Source: Pseudophaeomoniella oleicola
Taxonomy: Eukaryota > Ascomycota > Eurotiomycetes > Phaeomoniellales > Phaeomoniellaceae
Assembly (NCBI GenBank): GCA_003868215.1
Contig: QWDQ01000001.1
Coordinates: 1,116,001-1,180,000 of the forward strand
Direction: 5' to 3'
DNA: 64,000 bases
Both the position numbers and the translations under genes were made by a program. Shown one piece after another: positions 16,986-32,633 of the stretch; within the stretch, counting starts at the first letter, position 1, and the number at the start of each line of letters is the position of its first letter. Under the pieces are notes generated by a model, which searched no databases, had not been told where the DNA came from, and saw only the letters and a list, made by a program, of their open reading frames with translations.

Positions 16986-19583
16986 ATGTTGTGCCCAAAG
17001 AACCTGTGGTGTTGGTGTCTTACAGCAGGGGCGTTTAGACTGTCAAATGCTAGTCCGGCACCTCTACCGCAGCCTGCCATAGTAGCGGAGGAACAGTGTC
17101 CCATAGTGGCAGGCGTAACGCAGGTCGTCCAAACTGTTGTTCATCTCGAGCCAGTATACATAAATACCTACGTCGAGAGAAACATTACCTTCGCAGTCAA
17201 CAATTACATCAACATAACAGTTAACAACGCCCCGACCTCATTCGATCTCGTTACTACTGGCACTTTGACAAGCTACGCTACGAGTAGTCATACTTTGACG
17301 AGCTATGACACGAGCAGCAATCCTTCGGCGACCGATGCCATAGGCAGCTCTACTTCGAGGTGAGTTCCCCAGGTCGACATCCTGTCATAATCAAAGCCAA
17401 CTCGGTCAGCTTCAGTCTAGCAGTTACAGCGCCTGAATTGGTCCCTATCGAAGTCGAACCGTTTGTGCTCAGTTTCACCATTCCAGAAAGCCAACTTGGG
17501 AAACGTCAAGCCGGTTCAGGCTTCGTCAGTAACCAAGGATCGATGACCGGTTCATGCACAGACGCTGTTGTTTACTCCCTGATTAATGGTCAACTGTTTG
17601 CCAACGCTAGCGATGGGACCAGCGCTGAGTTCGGAGTCGACCCAGGGGTGCCTTTCATGGAGTTCATGCCGAGCACATCTCCAGGCAGCATCCGAACGAC
17701 TTTTACCATCAATCCTCAGAGCTATCTGACCTGGTCAAATGAAAGCTTCTTCAACTACAACGCTCAATGGTGCCTTTTACCAAATCAAACTATACTGGCT
17801 GTACTACAGCAAAACGCCGGACCTGAAGAGTGTCTATACGTAGATTTGAGCACAAATAGACGTGAGTATATATTTATGTCCAAGTGAGCGTCAGCTAACC
17901 ACAATCAGTGAGCACATGTACTGCTGGTGGTGCAGCCCCCGGTGGTGGTGTCATCGCAGGAGCCCCAGATATGTCATGCCCTTTGATTGTGAAGATATTT
18001 GATACTGACTGGATATCCACGAGCTAGTGGAGAACAAGGTATTTCTTACGCCTAAATTGCAGACAAGATGCTGATCGAAACAGGACCCATGGTGAGATCG
18101 TGTTAATAAATCCAGCCTTGAATATCCGACTGACGCTAGATGCTCGTCAAAGGGACCTACAGGTAGAGTGTGCACTTGACCAGTGGATGTAACGTTTACT
18201 GATCATTTCCAGGGCCTTCAGGACCAAGCGTAATTCCCCCGGTCCTATCAATAACGGGAATGCTAACCAGCATCACAGGGTCCGAGTGGGCCGACGGTAC
18301 GTTCTTGAATGAGGGTCCGTAATCAAATGGCAACTGACAATATCAGGGACCACAAGGCTTGACTGGACCAACAGATAAGTTCCTCAAACCTAGACCTACG
18401 AGTATCTAACTTGAAACACGACCCCAAGGATCAGTAGGCTCAACAGGTGCGTCCCAATGCCCTTCTAGGGTTATCCTGTTGCTAACCTAGGCATGTTTGG
18501 CAGGTCCACAAGGTGAAAAAAGTCATCTGTCCCATTGGCTGCAACATGACGCTGAAACCCACTGCAGGTATAACAGGGGCGCCAGGTCCCTCCGGTCCGT
18601 CCGGCCCATCTGGTGAGTACTTGGTCCGTCATAGTACATTCCAAGAGGTTGATATGCTAACATGAGTTGTGACTAGGGCCGCAAGGTGAGGGCATTCATC
18701 ATGCTTCCAGCGGAACACCCTCTAACGCTGCCTAAAGGTACAATTGGACCGACTGGAGTTCCCGGGTCGACAGGGCCAAGTGGTGAGTATAAAGCCTCCT
18801 TTTCATCCGAGAATTATCTAAGGCTGATTCCATCAAAGGCCCTTCAGGTATAAGCTTCTTGAATGCCTGCCTTGATGCGAACATTTCTAAACTTTACGGC
18901 AGGGCCTACTGGTGCGATAGGTCCGACAGGTGTGACGGGCGCAACAGGTATGTCAACGCACAGTAACGATAGCTGCGAATCATAAGATGTCGCGGGCTCT
19001 TGCTCGCATTTGCTGACTTGTCTCACACAGGACCATCTGGTGAGATGTCAACAGCCCTTCCCTTCGAAAGCGACTAACCATGATCGCTCAACTTCCAGGC
19101 CCACGTGGTAAGCACTTTTATTAGAGGATCAAGGGACATAATCTCACGCATACAGGACCATCTGGACCCTCCGGAGCAACCGGTATCGCCTTCGCATACA
19201 TCGGCTGTTTCCAGCAGTCTTGCACGACACCTCTCCTAGGCATTATAGGCTTCACTACTTGCTCCAGCGGTCTCGATAGCAGCTCAACCGGCAACACCGG
19301 CGGGTTTCTTAGGACATATAATACCAACACCACCCCGAACCCAGACCAACAATGCTCCAGCGATTGCCTCAATTTCAACTATGCCTCAGTCGCCGGTGGT
19401 AGGATACCGAACTATTTCGGGACTGTGGCGCGCAGTGATGGTGTTACCGTGGACTGTTATTGCAGTAATGCCTCTGCAGGGTCTACAGCCACATCGCTGT
19501 CGAGCTGTAGGGCATGCCCGAACTCCTCTGGGCAGTGTGGCGTCGGCGGTACATCAATTGCGTTATATGCTCGTTCGTTCTGA
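16986..19583 (+). CDS. Secreted collagen-like protein with C-terminal WSC-type domain, 19 exons
   Basis: Exons: 16986-17359, 17410-17861, 17909-17972, 18028-18038, 18084-18091, 18153-18162, 18213-18229, 18279-18296, 18347-18374, 18429-18446, 18504-18512, 18568-18612, 18677-18685, 18738-18782, 18839-18847, 18903-18947, 19031-19039, 19099-19107, 19156-19583. They sum to 1608 nt, one frame, 535 residues. Parts: signal peptide (about 1-22), Ser/Thr-rich stretch, Lys-Arg site (LGKRQAG), a four-cysteine N-domain with N-glycosylation sites (about 160-285), 36 unbroken Gly-X-Y triplets (298-405), then a WSC-like domain (YIGCF, DCYCSNA, CRACPNSSGQCGVGG). Pro is common at X and Ser/Thr at Y. Most triplet introns are phase 1, splitting the Gly codon. 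The exon 2 start could be 17416 instead. The intron at 18375-18428 begins AT. Collagenous fungal surface proteins are known (Metarhizium MCL1); this architecture I do not recognise. Likely a cell-surface or matrix protein. Confidence 0.82.
18029..19190 (+). repeat. Collagen-like Gly-X-Y tract encoded by micro-exons
   Basis: Thirty-six consecutive triplets read across fifteen small exons and the start of the last exon. Exon lengths are 11, 8, 10, 17, 18, 28, 18, 9, 45, 9, 45, 9, 45, 9 and 9 nt. From 18429 on, all lengths are multiples of 9 and all introns are phase 1. Each 9-nt exon gives one triplet: GPQ, GPQ, GPS, GPS, GPR. Bacillus-style GPT/GAT triplets also occur, but the introns show a eukaryotic gene. 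Confidence 0.85.
18375..18428 (+). other. Non-canonical AT...AG intron inside the collagen-like gene
   Basis: The exon 18347-18374 ends in cca aca g, and the next bases are ataagt where gtaagt is expected. The branch-like ctaac (about 18407) and the acceptor cccaag at 18428 are normal, and removing 18375-18428 restores Gly-X-Y register exactly. Either an AT-AG intron is tolerated, or this is a G-to-A change at the donor. If retained, translation stops 13 codons later, before the WSC domain. Confidence 0.6.
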
Positions 19584-20220: not shown

Positions 20221-21333
20221 ATGCCTCCAAGACTGCACCATCTACATCCCAAAGCGCTCCTCGCGGTATCAGGTCGACCTGCGACTGCAGGTGCATCTCT
20301 TCCAGCAATCACCTCCTCCCCCGTCTCGAGTCTTTCTACTCAGAACGCTTCCCATGAATCTCCCAGCACTCCAGTACGCAACAACTCTCACATTCAAAAG
20401 ACACTTCCCAGGCATGATGGTGGTCACCGCTCCTTTTCGTCCCTCGATCGTCCTCCGCCTCTCTATCCAGGCCATATCCCAATTACCGGTCCCGAACGCC
20501 TCGTCCTCGCGCTCGGCAGCACGCTCTACTCCTTCTTCACCCCTCGACGACCCGATCTGATCGCGCTATGTTCCGAAACGACGACACCAACGTCACTGCT
20601 CCGCTCCCTCCGGGACACAATGCTGCTCTCCCCCTCCGGCCGCGCCATCCTCCGCGAACGCCCCCGCATCTCCTCCAAGACCGTCGACATCCCCCACCTA
20701 CGCACCCTGCCGCCGACAACCCTCGGGAAAATCTACGCCGACTGGCTGGACCGCGAGAAAGTCACGCCCGACACCCGCGACCCCGTGCGTCACGTGTCCG
20801 ACCCGGAACTCGCCTACGTCCTGCAGCGCTACCGCGAATCCCACGATCTATACCACGTGCTGCTCGCCGAGAAGGGCATGCCGGCCTTCCTCGAGGGCGA
20901 AGTCGTCGTCAAGGCCTTCGAGTTTGCCGCTCTGGGTCTCCCGATGACCGGCTTGGCGACGCTGTCCGCCGTGAAACTGCCGAAGGAGCAACGGCGCCGC
21001 GTCCTCTGGGGCGGCCGTGGCGGTGCCGGAGACGTCGAAACCAGACTCCAAGAATCAGATCCCGACTCCCCCTCCACTCCCTCCCAATCCCAAGGCCAAC
21101 CCTGGCTCCTCTACGCCCTCTCCCAGGGCCTCAACACCCACACCTCCCCCGCGTCCAGCCTGCTCAACATCTACTGGGAACACGAATGGACCACACCCGT
21201 TTCGGAGCTTCGTGCGAGGCTCGGAATCAATTTACCCGTCGGCGTCGGCGATTTGAGAGAGGTTCGACGCAGGGAACGGGAGAGGAAGAAGAGGATGGAG
21301 AAGGAGAGGGTGGAGAGGATGGAGGGGTTGTAG
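20221..21333 (+). CDS. coq4: Ubiquinone biosynthesis protein COQ4
   Basis: Intronless, 370 residues. The N-terminal ~60 residues (MPPRLHHLHPKALLAVSG...) are basic and hydroxylated, as expected for mitochondrial import. The COQ4 core starts near GPERLVLALGSTLYSFFTPRRPDLIAL and contains the metal-binding HDxxH (RESHDLYHVLL) followed by EGEVVVKAFEFAALG. It ends with NIYWEHEWTTPVSELRARLGI, a family hallmark. COQ4 organises the inner-membrane CoQ synthome; recent work in the field assigns it C1 decarboxylation/hydroxylation. A Gly/Ser/Pro-rich insert (about 265-290) and a strongly basic RERERKKRMEKERVER tail are extra. The coding sequence is visibly more GC-rich, with C/G third positions, than its neighbours. 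Confidence 0.95.
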   Translation: MPPRLHHLHPKALLAVSGRPATAGASLPAITSSPVSSLSTQNASHESPSTPVRNNSHIQKTLPRHDGGHRSFSSLDRPPPLYPGHIPITGPERLVLALGSTLYSFFTPRRPDLIALCSETTTPTSLLRSLRDTMLLSPSGRAILRERPRISSKTVDIPHLRTLPPTTLGKIYADWLDREKVTPDTRDPVRHVSDPELAYVLQRYRESHDLYHVLLAEKGMPAFLEGEVVVKAFEFAALGLPMTGLATLSAVKLPKEQRRRVLWGGRGGAGDVETRLQESDPDSPSTPSQSQGQPWLLYALSQGLNTHTSPASSLLNIYWEHEWTTPVSELRARLGINLPVGVGDLREVRRRERERKKRMEKERVERMEGL

Positions 21334-31049: not shown

Positions 31050-32633
31050 ATGGCACAGAATGGTGTGTCAGGGACACCAGACCTTCCGGATGCTGTGAAC
31101 AAACCTCCCGAAGGCGTTGTTCTACCCCCAAAAGATATCAGAGCGATCGTTGAAAAGACTGCTGGCTACGTCGCGAGAAACGGTCCTGTCTTCGAAGATC
31201 GTATTCGCGAAAAGGAAAGGCACAATCCGAAGTTCTCCTTCCTCAATCCGAATGATGCATATGCCGCATTCTACCAATGGCGATTACACGAAGTGAAAGA
31301 GGGACGAGGAACCGCTGTATCAGCTGGTCGAGTGGGTGAGACCCCGGTCGACACCAAACCCAAAGGTCCTGAGCCGCCCTCGGATTTCATATTCTCGGCG
31401 CGAATGCCAAATATCAGCGCGCAAGATCTGGAGGTTGTCAAACTCACTGCTTTACACGTTGCGAGGAAAGGCAAATCATGGATGACGACACTGGCGCAAC
31501 GCGAAGCGAGAAATTACCAATTCGACTTTCTGCGACCGCAACATAGTCTATACCAGTATTTCACCAAACTCGTGGACCAATACACATTGCTCCTCCAGGC
31601 GGGACCAGAAGGCCAAAAGGCAGAGCAGAAGCGAATTTACGAACTCACACGAAACATTCAGGACAAATTCCATATTCTTGATAGGGCGAAGAAGCGATCG
31701 GAATGGGCCAAGTTTCAAGAAGCTCAGAAACAGCAGAAAGAGGAAGAGGAGGAAGCGGAAAGAATAGCTTACGCCCAGATTGATTGGCATGATTTCGTGG
31801 TTGTCGAGACGGTCGTGTTCACCGAAGCGGATGACCATGCTGATCTTCCCCCACCAACATCCCTAAATGACCTTCAATCAGCGTCTCTGGAACAAAAAGC
31901 CATGATGTCTCTCTCACGACCTGAAATGCGCATCGAAGAAGCAATGCCTACAAGTGACGAACCGTCTTACTATAATCCTTACACCCAACAGGCTCAGACA
32001 GAGCCTTACATTCCTCAACCTACTTACACACCGCAGCCAGCGCCGCAGGCAGACTATTCGCCGGCACCGGCGATAGTAAGTCCCGCTCCGCCACCGTCCG
32101 TATCACCACAACCACCACAGTCGTCAGCGAATGCAACGGCTTTGCCCCCTAGACCGTCATCGATTCCGCCTCCTGCCCAGCAACCTTCAGCTAACGCACC
32201 GATGCGAATACGTAATGACTATGTTCCACGCGCTGCTGCGCGCGCCGCCGGACCAAAGACCGCGCTCTGTCCAAATTGCAAACAGCAAATTCCACTCAAC
32301 GAACTTGAACAGCATATGCGCATTGAGCTTCTCGATCCTAGATGGAAGGAACAACGTGCAAAAGCGGATGCCCGATACGCAACCACCAATCTGTCTACTG
32401 CAGATGTCGCCAACAATCTGAAACGCTTAGCAAGCCAGCGAACCGACGTTTTTGATCCTAGTGTCGCCGCTCAGCAAGCTGCTGCGCAGACACTATTGAG
32501 TGAAGATGAAGAAACAAGGCGTAAGAGAGTAAAGGAAGATATAGAAGGCCCAGTAGCGGGAGGAAACCCCTCTGGTAAAGATCTGAGCGTCCAAGAACAA
32601 ATTAGTCGAATACATCAGAAGTTCAGGCAGTGA
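31050..32633 (+). CDS. sap114: Splicing factor 3a subunit 1 (SF3A1/Prp21/Sap114)
   Basis: Intronless, 527 residues. Two SURP (SWAP) modules: about 28-75 (IVEKTAGYVARNGPVFEDRI, then FSFLNPNDAYAAFYQWRL) and about 128-175 (VVKLTALHVARKGKSWMTTL, FDFLRPQHSLYQYFTKLV). Between and after them lies the Prp21-like helical region that contacts SF3a60 and SF3a66. A charged helix with KKRSEWAKFQEAQKQQKEEEEEA and IDWHDFVVVETVVF follows. After a Pro/Gln-rich linker comes CPNCKQQIP...LEQHMRIELLDPRWKEQR, a segment conserved in SF3A1. The ubiquitin-like domain found at the C-terminus of animal SF3A1 is absent, as usual in fungi. Role: U2 snRNP maturation and prespliceosome assembly in the nucleus. A Met-rich leader frame upstream is not used. 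Confidence 0.93.
   Translation: MAQNGVSGTPDLPDAVNKPPEGVVLPPKDIRAIVEKTAGYVARNGPVFEDRIREKERHNPKFSFLNPNDAYAAFYQWRLHEVKEGRGTAVSAGRVGETPVDTKPKGPEPPSDFIFSARMPNISAQDLEVVKLTALHVARKGKSWMTTLAQREARNYQFDFLRPQHSLYQYFTKLVDQYTLLLQAGPEGQKAEQKRIYELTRNIQDKFHILDRAKKRSEWAKFQEAQKQQKEEEEEAERIAYAQIDWHDFVVVETVVFTEADDHADLPPPTSLNDLQSASLEQKAMMSLSRPEMRIEEAMPTSDEPSYYNPYTQQAQTEPYIPQPTYTPQPAPQADYSPAPAIVSPAPPPSVSPQPPQSSANATALPPRPSSIPPPAQQPSANAPMRIRNDYVPRAAARAAGPKTALCPNCKQQIPLNELEQHMRIELLDPRWKEQRAKADARYATTNLSTADVANNLKRLASQRTDVFDPSVAAQQAAAQTLLSEDEETRRKRVKEDIEGPVAGGNPSGKDLSVQEQISRIHQKFRQ

Follow-up and report, generated by a model that had tools for sequence, protein, structure and literature searches.

A collagen-like gene built from micro-exons, with predicted AT-AC introns among GT-AG introns, in an ascomycete genome

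Exon-intron structure of the gene

The window analyzed here, a stretch of 64,000 nucleotides, carries on its plus strand, at 16986-19583, what its sequence supports as a collagen-like gene built from micro-exons. In its corrected form, the gene comprises 19 exons and 18 introns of 45-83 nt, sums to 1614 nt, and encodes 537 residues, including 39 Gly-X-Y triplets without interruption, in a single reading frame that reaches the stop codon at 19581-19583. The fifteen exons from exon 4 to exon 18 measure 8-45 nt each, and seven of the gene's exons have only 8-10 nt. The original prediction had placed a collagen-like micro-exon gene in this segment, which is borne out by the Pfam Collagen and DUF7908 matches of the spliced model and by the uninterrupted tract of a paralogue, both described below. 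Its fifteen small exons, its 18 introns of 45-83 nt, and its single frame are confirmed as well. The number of 19 exons and the unbroken Gly-X-Y tract also stand, but the 1608 nt and 36 triplets given for them become 1614 nt and 39 triplets with two AT-AC introns; our closest remake of that model sums to 1581 nt. What fails is a gene model of the GT-AG type throughout, in which these two AT-AC introns had been overlooked.

Exon 1 (16986-17359; plus strand, as for all features of this gene) contains the start codon, a hydrophobic N-terminus that by eye is a putative signal peptide, and a Ser/Thr-rich region, its open frame being followed by a GT-AG intron. The DUF7908 domain is encoded by exon 2 (17416-17861; PF25485, E 1.4e-30 with the exon translation), and exon 3 (17909-17968, 60 nt) provides in frame a linker and the first Gly-X-Y, up to the AT-AC donor CCAG/ATATGT. 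The ensuing intron (17969-18020, ATATGT...CTGAC...CAC) and intron 9 (18375-18419, ATAAGT...CTAAC, 7 nt, AC), both of phase 1, are the two with AT...AC rather than GT-AG termini. Between them are located exon 4 (18021-18038, 18 nt), the micro-exons 5 (18084-18091, 8 nt) and 6 (18153-18162, 10 nt), and exons 7 (18213-18229, 17 nt), 8 (18279-18296, 18 nt), and 9 (18347-18374, 28 nt). Exon 10 (18420-18446, 27 nt) contains one Gly-Pro-Gln triplet more than the exon starting at 18429 in the original prediction; the exon lengths in multiples of 9 and the phase-1 introns that it reported from there on are retained, with the start displaced to 18420. Indeed, the internal exons from 18420 measure 27, 9, 45, 9, 45, 9, 45, 9, and 9 nt and are separated by phase-1 introns that cut inside the Gly codon. 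These are, after exon 10, exon 11 (18504-18512, the single triplet GPQ), exon 12 (18568-18612), exon 13 (18677-18685, GPQ), exon 14 (18738-18782), exon 15 (18839-18847, GPS), exon 16 (18903-18947), exon 17 (19031-19039, GPS), and exon 18 (19099-19107, GPR). Lastly, exon 19 (19156-19583) encodes the last Gly-X-Y triplets, the Cys-rich C-terminal region, and the stop codon. Overall, 14 of the 18 introns are of phase 1, including all nine located 3' of exon 10.

A model restricted to GT-AG introns cannot cover the whole gene, since the donor at 18375 reads ATAAGT. Intron 9 can also be read as AT-AG with the Gly-X-Y pattern preserved, which yields a model of 1581 nt and 36 triplets. The AT-AC reading is preferred because the sister gene described below exhibits AT-AC introns and because it is an AC, not an AG, that sits ~10 nt from the branch motif.

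The chain was scored with a local Viterbi procedure for Gly-X-Y chains whose only inputs are a glycine at every third codon and the terminal dinucleotides of introns. With GT-AG chains on both strands, the tile at 18201 reaches 58.3 nats, and none of the 47 other tiles exceeds 11.7 (2600 nt each, 24 per strand, covering each strand except for its final 1.6 kb). The segment 17861-19300 scores 50.9 nats with GT-AG only and 67.8 nats with AT-AC, against a maximum of 14.3 among 200 dinucleotide-preserving shuffles, so the earlier view that such a chain is hard to reach by chance holds. A genome-wide pattern for 9-nt GT-AG micro-exons, which misses most of the known ones, returned 10 matches versus 7 for its control and hence no excess.

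Domains and relatives of the predicted product

The predicted product, composed of the DUF7908 domain, the collagen tract, and a Cys-rich end, is probably a secreted or cell-surface protein. Pfam analysis of a spliced 526-residue model devoid of AT-AC introns reports DUF7908 (2.8e-29) and Collagen (PF01391, 1.9e-15; 56.8 bits for a cut-off of 27.2). The Cys-rich C-terminus comprises 133 residues. Its likeness by eye to a WSC domain (PF01822) was not matched by Pfam, which returned no family for the C-termini of the three genes considered below at E<=5. A PDB sequence search with this region yielded two matches, both at the level of chance (E 0.2 and 0.42), and its predicted structure has a mean pLDDT of 38.

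DUF7908 occurs eight times in seven genes of the genome, six of the other domains being 27-31% identical to that of the window. Collagen tracts follow it on the 3' side in three genes, namely the window gene, a paralogue at C35:21.6-23.3 kb, and the sister gene at C1:638 kb, as established by a chain scan of both strands at 67 of 71 loci and of about 1.5 kb on each side of the remaining four DUF7908 genes. In the C35 paralogue (L053:3568-5301), 57 triplets or more follow one another uninterrupted. Its N-terminal part contains an in-frame TAG within the DUF7908 domain and what looks like a frame shift close to the start, and the paralogue is possibly a pseudogene. As its collagen tract follows DUF7908 uninterrupted, it provides the spliced tract of the window gene with an independent template. 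In a set of 5.8 billion proteins, no relative from other species was returned for the N-terminal or DUF7908 part by a search that relies on shared 5-residue words, and in which a missing match does not amount to absence. The same search with the mannosyltransferase frame of the window as a control query reported 2087 relatives among 8000 scored candidates, with many fungal proteins among the 120 listed.

A larger sister gene

The sister collagen gene follows the plan of the window gene on a larger scale. It shares its contig with the window gene and covers C1:637.4-643.9 kb on the minus strand, with the DUF7908 domain at C1:643551-643877 continuing in frame into 59 collagen and C-terminal exons at C1:637413-643496 (L054). 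The Gly-X-Y triplets that they encode number about 295, with the register briefly broken at two places, and a single uninterrupted exon of 1089 nt accounts for about 120 of them. The exons are separated by 37 GT-AG, 19 AT-AC, one AT-AA, and one GC-AG introns. The automatic chain contained 23 AT-AC and 31 GT-AG introns, five of the AT-AC ones falling within two poorly resolved segments whose exons measured 0-1 nt; these two segments and the last exons were set by hand. At C1:641508-641240 (minus strand), the Gly-X-Y register is interrupted in neighbouring exons by two near-identical segments, GAAATG and GAAITG, a pairing that suggests a duplication. Gapped alignments of three neighbouring units report that their 53-nt exons are 60-72% alike, their 10-nt exons 60-80%, and their introns 49-61%.

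Twelve exons of the sister gene measure 6-10 nt, and eight of these twelve are flanked by unlike introns. Seven of the eight, all of 10 nt, have a GT-AG intron on the 5' side and an AT-AC intron on the 3' side, while the eighth has GC-AG and AT-AA, respectively. If any of these eight 10-nt exons were skipped, the frame would be lost and a donor starting with G would have to be joined to an acceptor ending in C or A. Within the AT-bearing segment of the gene, unlike flanking introns are found for 8 of 9 exons of up to 10 nt and for 15 of 28 longer ones (Fisher 0.06); this is a weak sign of a preference of micro-exons for unlike neighbours, as the difference is not significant and the exons may be duplicates.

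These observations bear on the function of the fragmentation itself. Alternative splicing might be what maintains it, with small exons that can be left out to give triple helices of different length; where exons measure 9n nt and introns are of phase 1, skipping would indeed leave Gly-X-Y intact. In contrast, exons of 8, 10, and 17 nt cannot be skipped without frame loss, and the eight sister micro-exons with unlike flanking introns also speak against it. We regard this explanation as rather unlikely, and it is compatible with the splicing scheme favored below.

Evidence for AT-AC termini

The AT-AC introns of both collagen genes are a strong prediction from their sequence. When each of 255 alternative dinucleotide pairs was added to GT-AG, AT-AC performed best, with 224 nats summed over both genes as compared with 121 for the next pair. 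In the sister gene, the gain amounts to 207 nats for AT-AC, 108 for GA-AC, the next pair, and 93 for AT-AG; in the window it is 16.9 nats, more than for any other of the 12 pairs listed. Shuffled sequences gain at most 2.0 nats for the window (n=200) and 6.6 nats for the sister gene (n=100). If the donor is chosen from GT or AT and the acceptor independently from AG or AC, the sister gene yields 28 GT-AG, 19 AT-AC, 3 GT-AC, and 1 AT-AG introns and the window 13, 2, 1, and 0, that is 41, 21, 4, and 1 when pooled (Fisher 2e-12), counts that are partly dependent on the model, AT introns and micro-exons being found by requiring Gly-X-Y continuity. As more junk pairs were permitted, the GT-AG counts dropped and AT-AC stayed at 19 in the sister gene and 2 in the window. 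Altogether, 21 of the 22 AT introns of both genes end in AC and one in AA, and 2 of the 22 could be retained in frame and free of stops. The G found 5' and 3' of every AT intron results from its place in the Gly codon and is not separate evidence.

Outside the two collagen genes, the pattern of such introns does not exceed background. The pattern GATRAGT-N14..40-CTRAC-N5..9-ACG returned 33 matches genome-wide, of which 12 fall within the two collagen genes and 21 outside them (one place being counted twice), versus 22 outside for the reversed control pattern. With 12 of the 22 AT introns of these genes captured by the pattern, a scatter of AT-AC introns beyond a few tens would be visible; a few could hide, and introns without a flanking G could escape it.

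It could be argued that only the GT-AG introns are spliced and that the AT sites are mutated donors, for instance by G-to-A changes, in a gene that is decaying or skipping these exons. The window would fit such a case, with just two affected introns and an intron 9 that maintains Gly-X-Y when read as AT-AG. However, both ends change jointly, AT with AC, in 19 sister introns, AT-AG gains less than half as much as AT-AC in that gene, and a change from AG to AC is not a product of G-to-A mutation. Moreover, the long frame remains open, and the donor and branch signals of the AT introns are tighter than those of the GT introns, as detailed in the next section. Decay by donor mutation is accordingly improbable, and AT-AC termini remain the preferred reading.

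Splice signals and the spliceosome probably involved

The predicted AT introns have strict U2-like donors and branch sites. The features compared here, donor positions +5 and +6, the branch site, and length, were not used by the chain scoring. All 22 AT introns have G at +5 and T at +6, as compared with 23 of 53 GT introns (Fisher 9.5e-7), and all 22 conform to the donor consensus AT(A/G)NGT. A CTRAY branch motif is found in 20 of the 22 AT introns, at 10.6 nt from the end (sd 1.1), and in 31 of the 53 GT introns, at 12.9 nt (sd 4.1; permutation p 1.5e-4 for AT versus GT), leaving 2 AT and 22 GT introns without CTRAY in the counted range. AT introns measure 45-54 nt and GT introns 44-83 nt. 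In 6 of the 22 AT introns, an AG within the last 12 bases is bypassed.

These U2-like donors and branch sites indicate the major (U1/U2) spliceosome, which is most likely the one that splices the AT introns. Two diverged U1 RNA candidates, both on the minus strand (L062:1501-1667 and L063:1501-1638), were identified at 53 bits each, below the Rfam cut-off of 69.5. Their 5' end is identical and canonical, AUACUUACCU; a dedicated U1 variant matching ATAAGT was sought and not found. U12-type introns have the donor consensus RTATCCTT and the branch consensus TCCTTRAC, part of the class has AT-AC ends, and their 3' end lies a short distance from the branch site. The AT introns share with them these ends and a branch-to-end distance near 10-13 nt, but neither consensus is present: ATATC occurs in 0 of the 22 donors, and TCCTTRA or TTCCTT in the last 30 nt of 0 of the 22. 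The genome returned no U12 RNA match at E<=1 and a single U6atac match of 21 bits for a cut-off of 33, such matches being also found in 8 of 14 control genomes, all prokaryotes by the names shown; neither search had a positive control, and even U1 falls below the cut-off here. That the AT-AC introns are of the U12 type and served by a minor spliceosome is therefore most improbable, the more so since PMC10639083 reports a lack of convincing minor introns in the Ascomycota. Regarding the intron ends, PMC8283771 describes, for yeast, A.C as the exclusive substitute for G.G and A.A as weakly supporting splicing, with which the single AT-AA intron is consistent.

Proposed splicing mechanism and origin

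We consider it highly probable, on the strength of these sequence features, that this is a micro-exon collagen gene whose GT-AG and AT-AC introns are both removed by the U1/U2 spliceosome through intron definition, and in which the AT-AC introns have multiplied together with the collagen units. Each short intron would be found as a unit, so that exons of 8-10 nt would not have to be recognized themselves. The absence of G from the first position of AT introns may be compensated by a U1 site that is otherwise near-perfect (ATAAGT), and their first base, A, would pair with their last, C, with A.C replacing G.G at the second step. The 3' end would then be chosen by its distance from the branch site (~10 nt) and not as the first AG.

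As to their origin, the AT-AC introns probably descend from a single ancestor, copied along with the collagen units when these duplicated. Once established, AT-AC would be hard to revert to GT-AG, because both ends must change together. Recent copying of introns in the manner of introners is not supported: intron interiors score on average -5.0 for AT introns (shuffles -5.6) and -6.7 for GT introns (shuffles -7.1), and the best pairs are no better than shuffled ones. With introns 49-61% alike and interiors near the shuffle level, any copying must be old and not introner-like.

A further proposal, which we put forward tentatively and hold to be rather unlikely, is that the two chemically incompatible end pairs, G.G and A.C, handled by one spliceosome, constitute a pairing code, AT-AC introns being kept since they force the inclusion of micro-exons. 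If a micro-exon is preceded by a GT-AG intron and followed by an AT-AC intron, skipping it alone would need a GT donor to be joined to an AC acceptor, which the second step would reject. Unlike flanking introns may thus have made AT-AC introns useful in the sister gene.

Comparison with known systems

The AT introns resemble the U2-type AT-AC (type II) introns in their AT...AC termini, their U2-like donor and branch, and the replacement of G.G by A.C. Known introns of this type are few and scattered; in contrast, 21 are predicted here in two sister genes, and their pattern is not in excess elsewhere in the genome. In PMC7072748, covering 130 fungal genomes, AT-AC represents 0.019% of splice pairs and 46 introns make up 10.7% of the fungal AT-AC set; from its tables we derive an average of roughly three AT-AC introns per genome. 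No fungal cluster was found in the titles and abstract openings of the openly licensed literature on AT-AC introns.

In animal fibrillar collagens, most exons are 54 or 45 nt long, and the first codon of an exon is an intact Gly codon. Like the gene described here, theirs encode Gly-X-Y in numerous short exons whose lengths are multiples of 9 nt, but here the Gly codon is often split (phase 1), single-triplet exons occur, and AT-AC introns are present. Among the openly licensed papers listed, none showed a fungal collagen with micro-exons or AT-AC introns, nor any fungal gene with single-triplet exons. Trichoderma virens Xlr2 is also a case of a micro-exon in a filamentous fungus, but with one regulated micro-exon in a transcription factor; functional micro-exons were called new to filamentous fungi in 2024 in PMC11121469. 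Stwintrons and introner-like elements (PMC8469720) likewise represent unusual intron arrangements or intron proliferation in ascomycetes, whereas in the collagen genes intron interiors align at about the shuffle level and each intron is complete on its own.

Provided that the predicted junctions are real, 21 AT-AC introns reside in a single ascomycete gene family. This family would then offer, in a lineage with no known minor spliceosome, a natural test bed for the long-standing idea of pairing between the first and last intron bases, for 3' splice site choice without AG, and for the splicing of exons of 8-10 nt. Gene predictors that assume GT-AG introns and longer exons would miss such genes.

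Host and neighbourhood

The mannosyltransferase frame of the window is up to 89% identical to metagenome proteins; its named matches include proteins of Pyrenula ochraceoflavens (82%), Aureobasidium melanogenum (81%), and Exophiala and Rhinocladiella (79-80%). This one protein points to an ascomycete host, perhaps a relative of the Pyrenulales and Chaetothyriales. A scan for bacterial-type promoters upstream of the window gene found nothing, the bacterial model being uninformative for a fungus. Downstream of the collagen gene, a Coq4 frame is located at 20221-21333 (plus strand), and ~11.5 kb downstream a frame at 31050-32633 (plus strand) matches a PRP21-like splicing factor with Surp modules. 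Elsewhere in the genome, at C44:2.0-7.2 kb (L008, L009, and L019, plus strand), 18 Gly-X-Y-like triplets scoring 47-49 nats lie opposite a multi-WSC frame, and this run is perhaps the antisense echo of a repeat.
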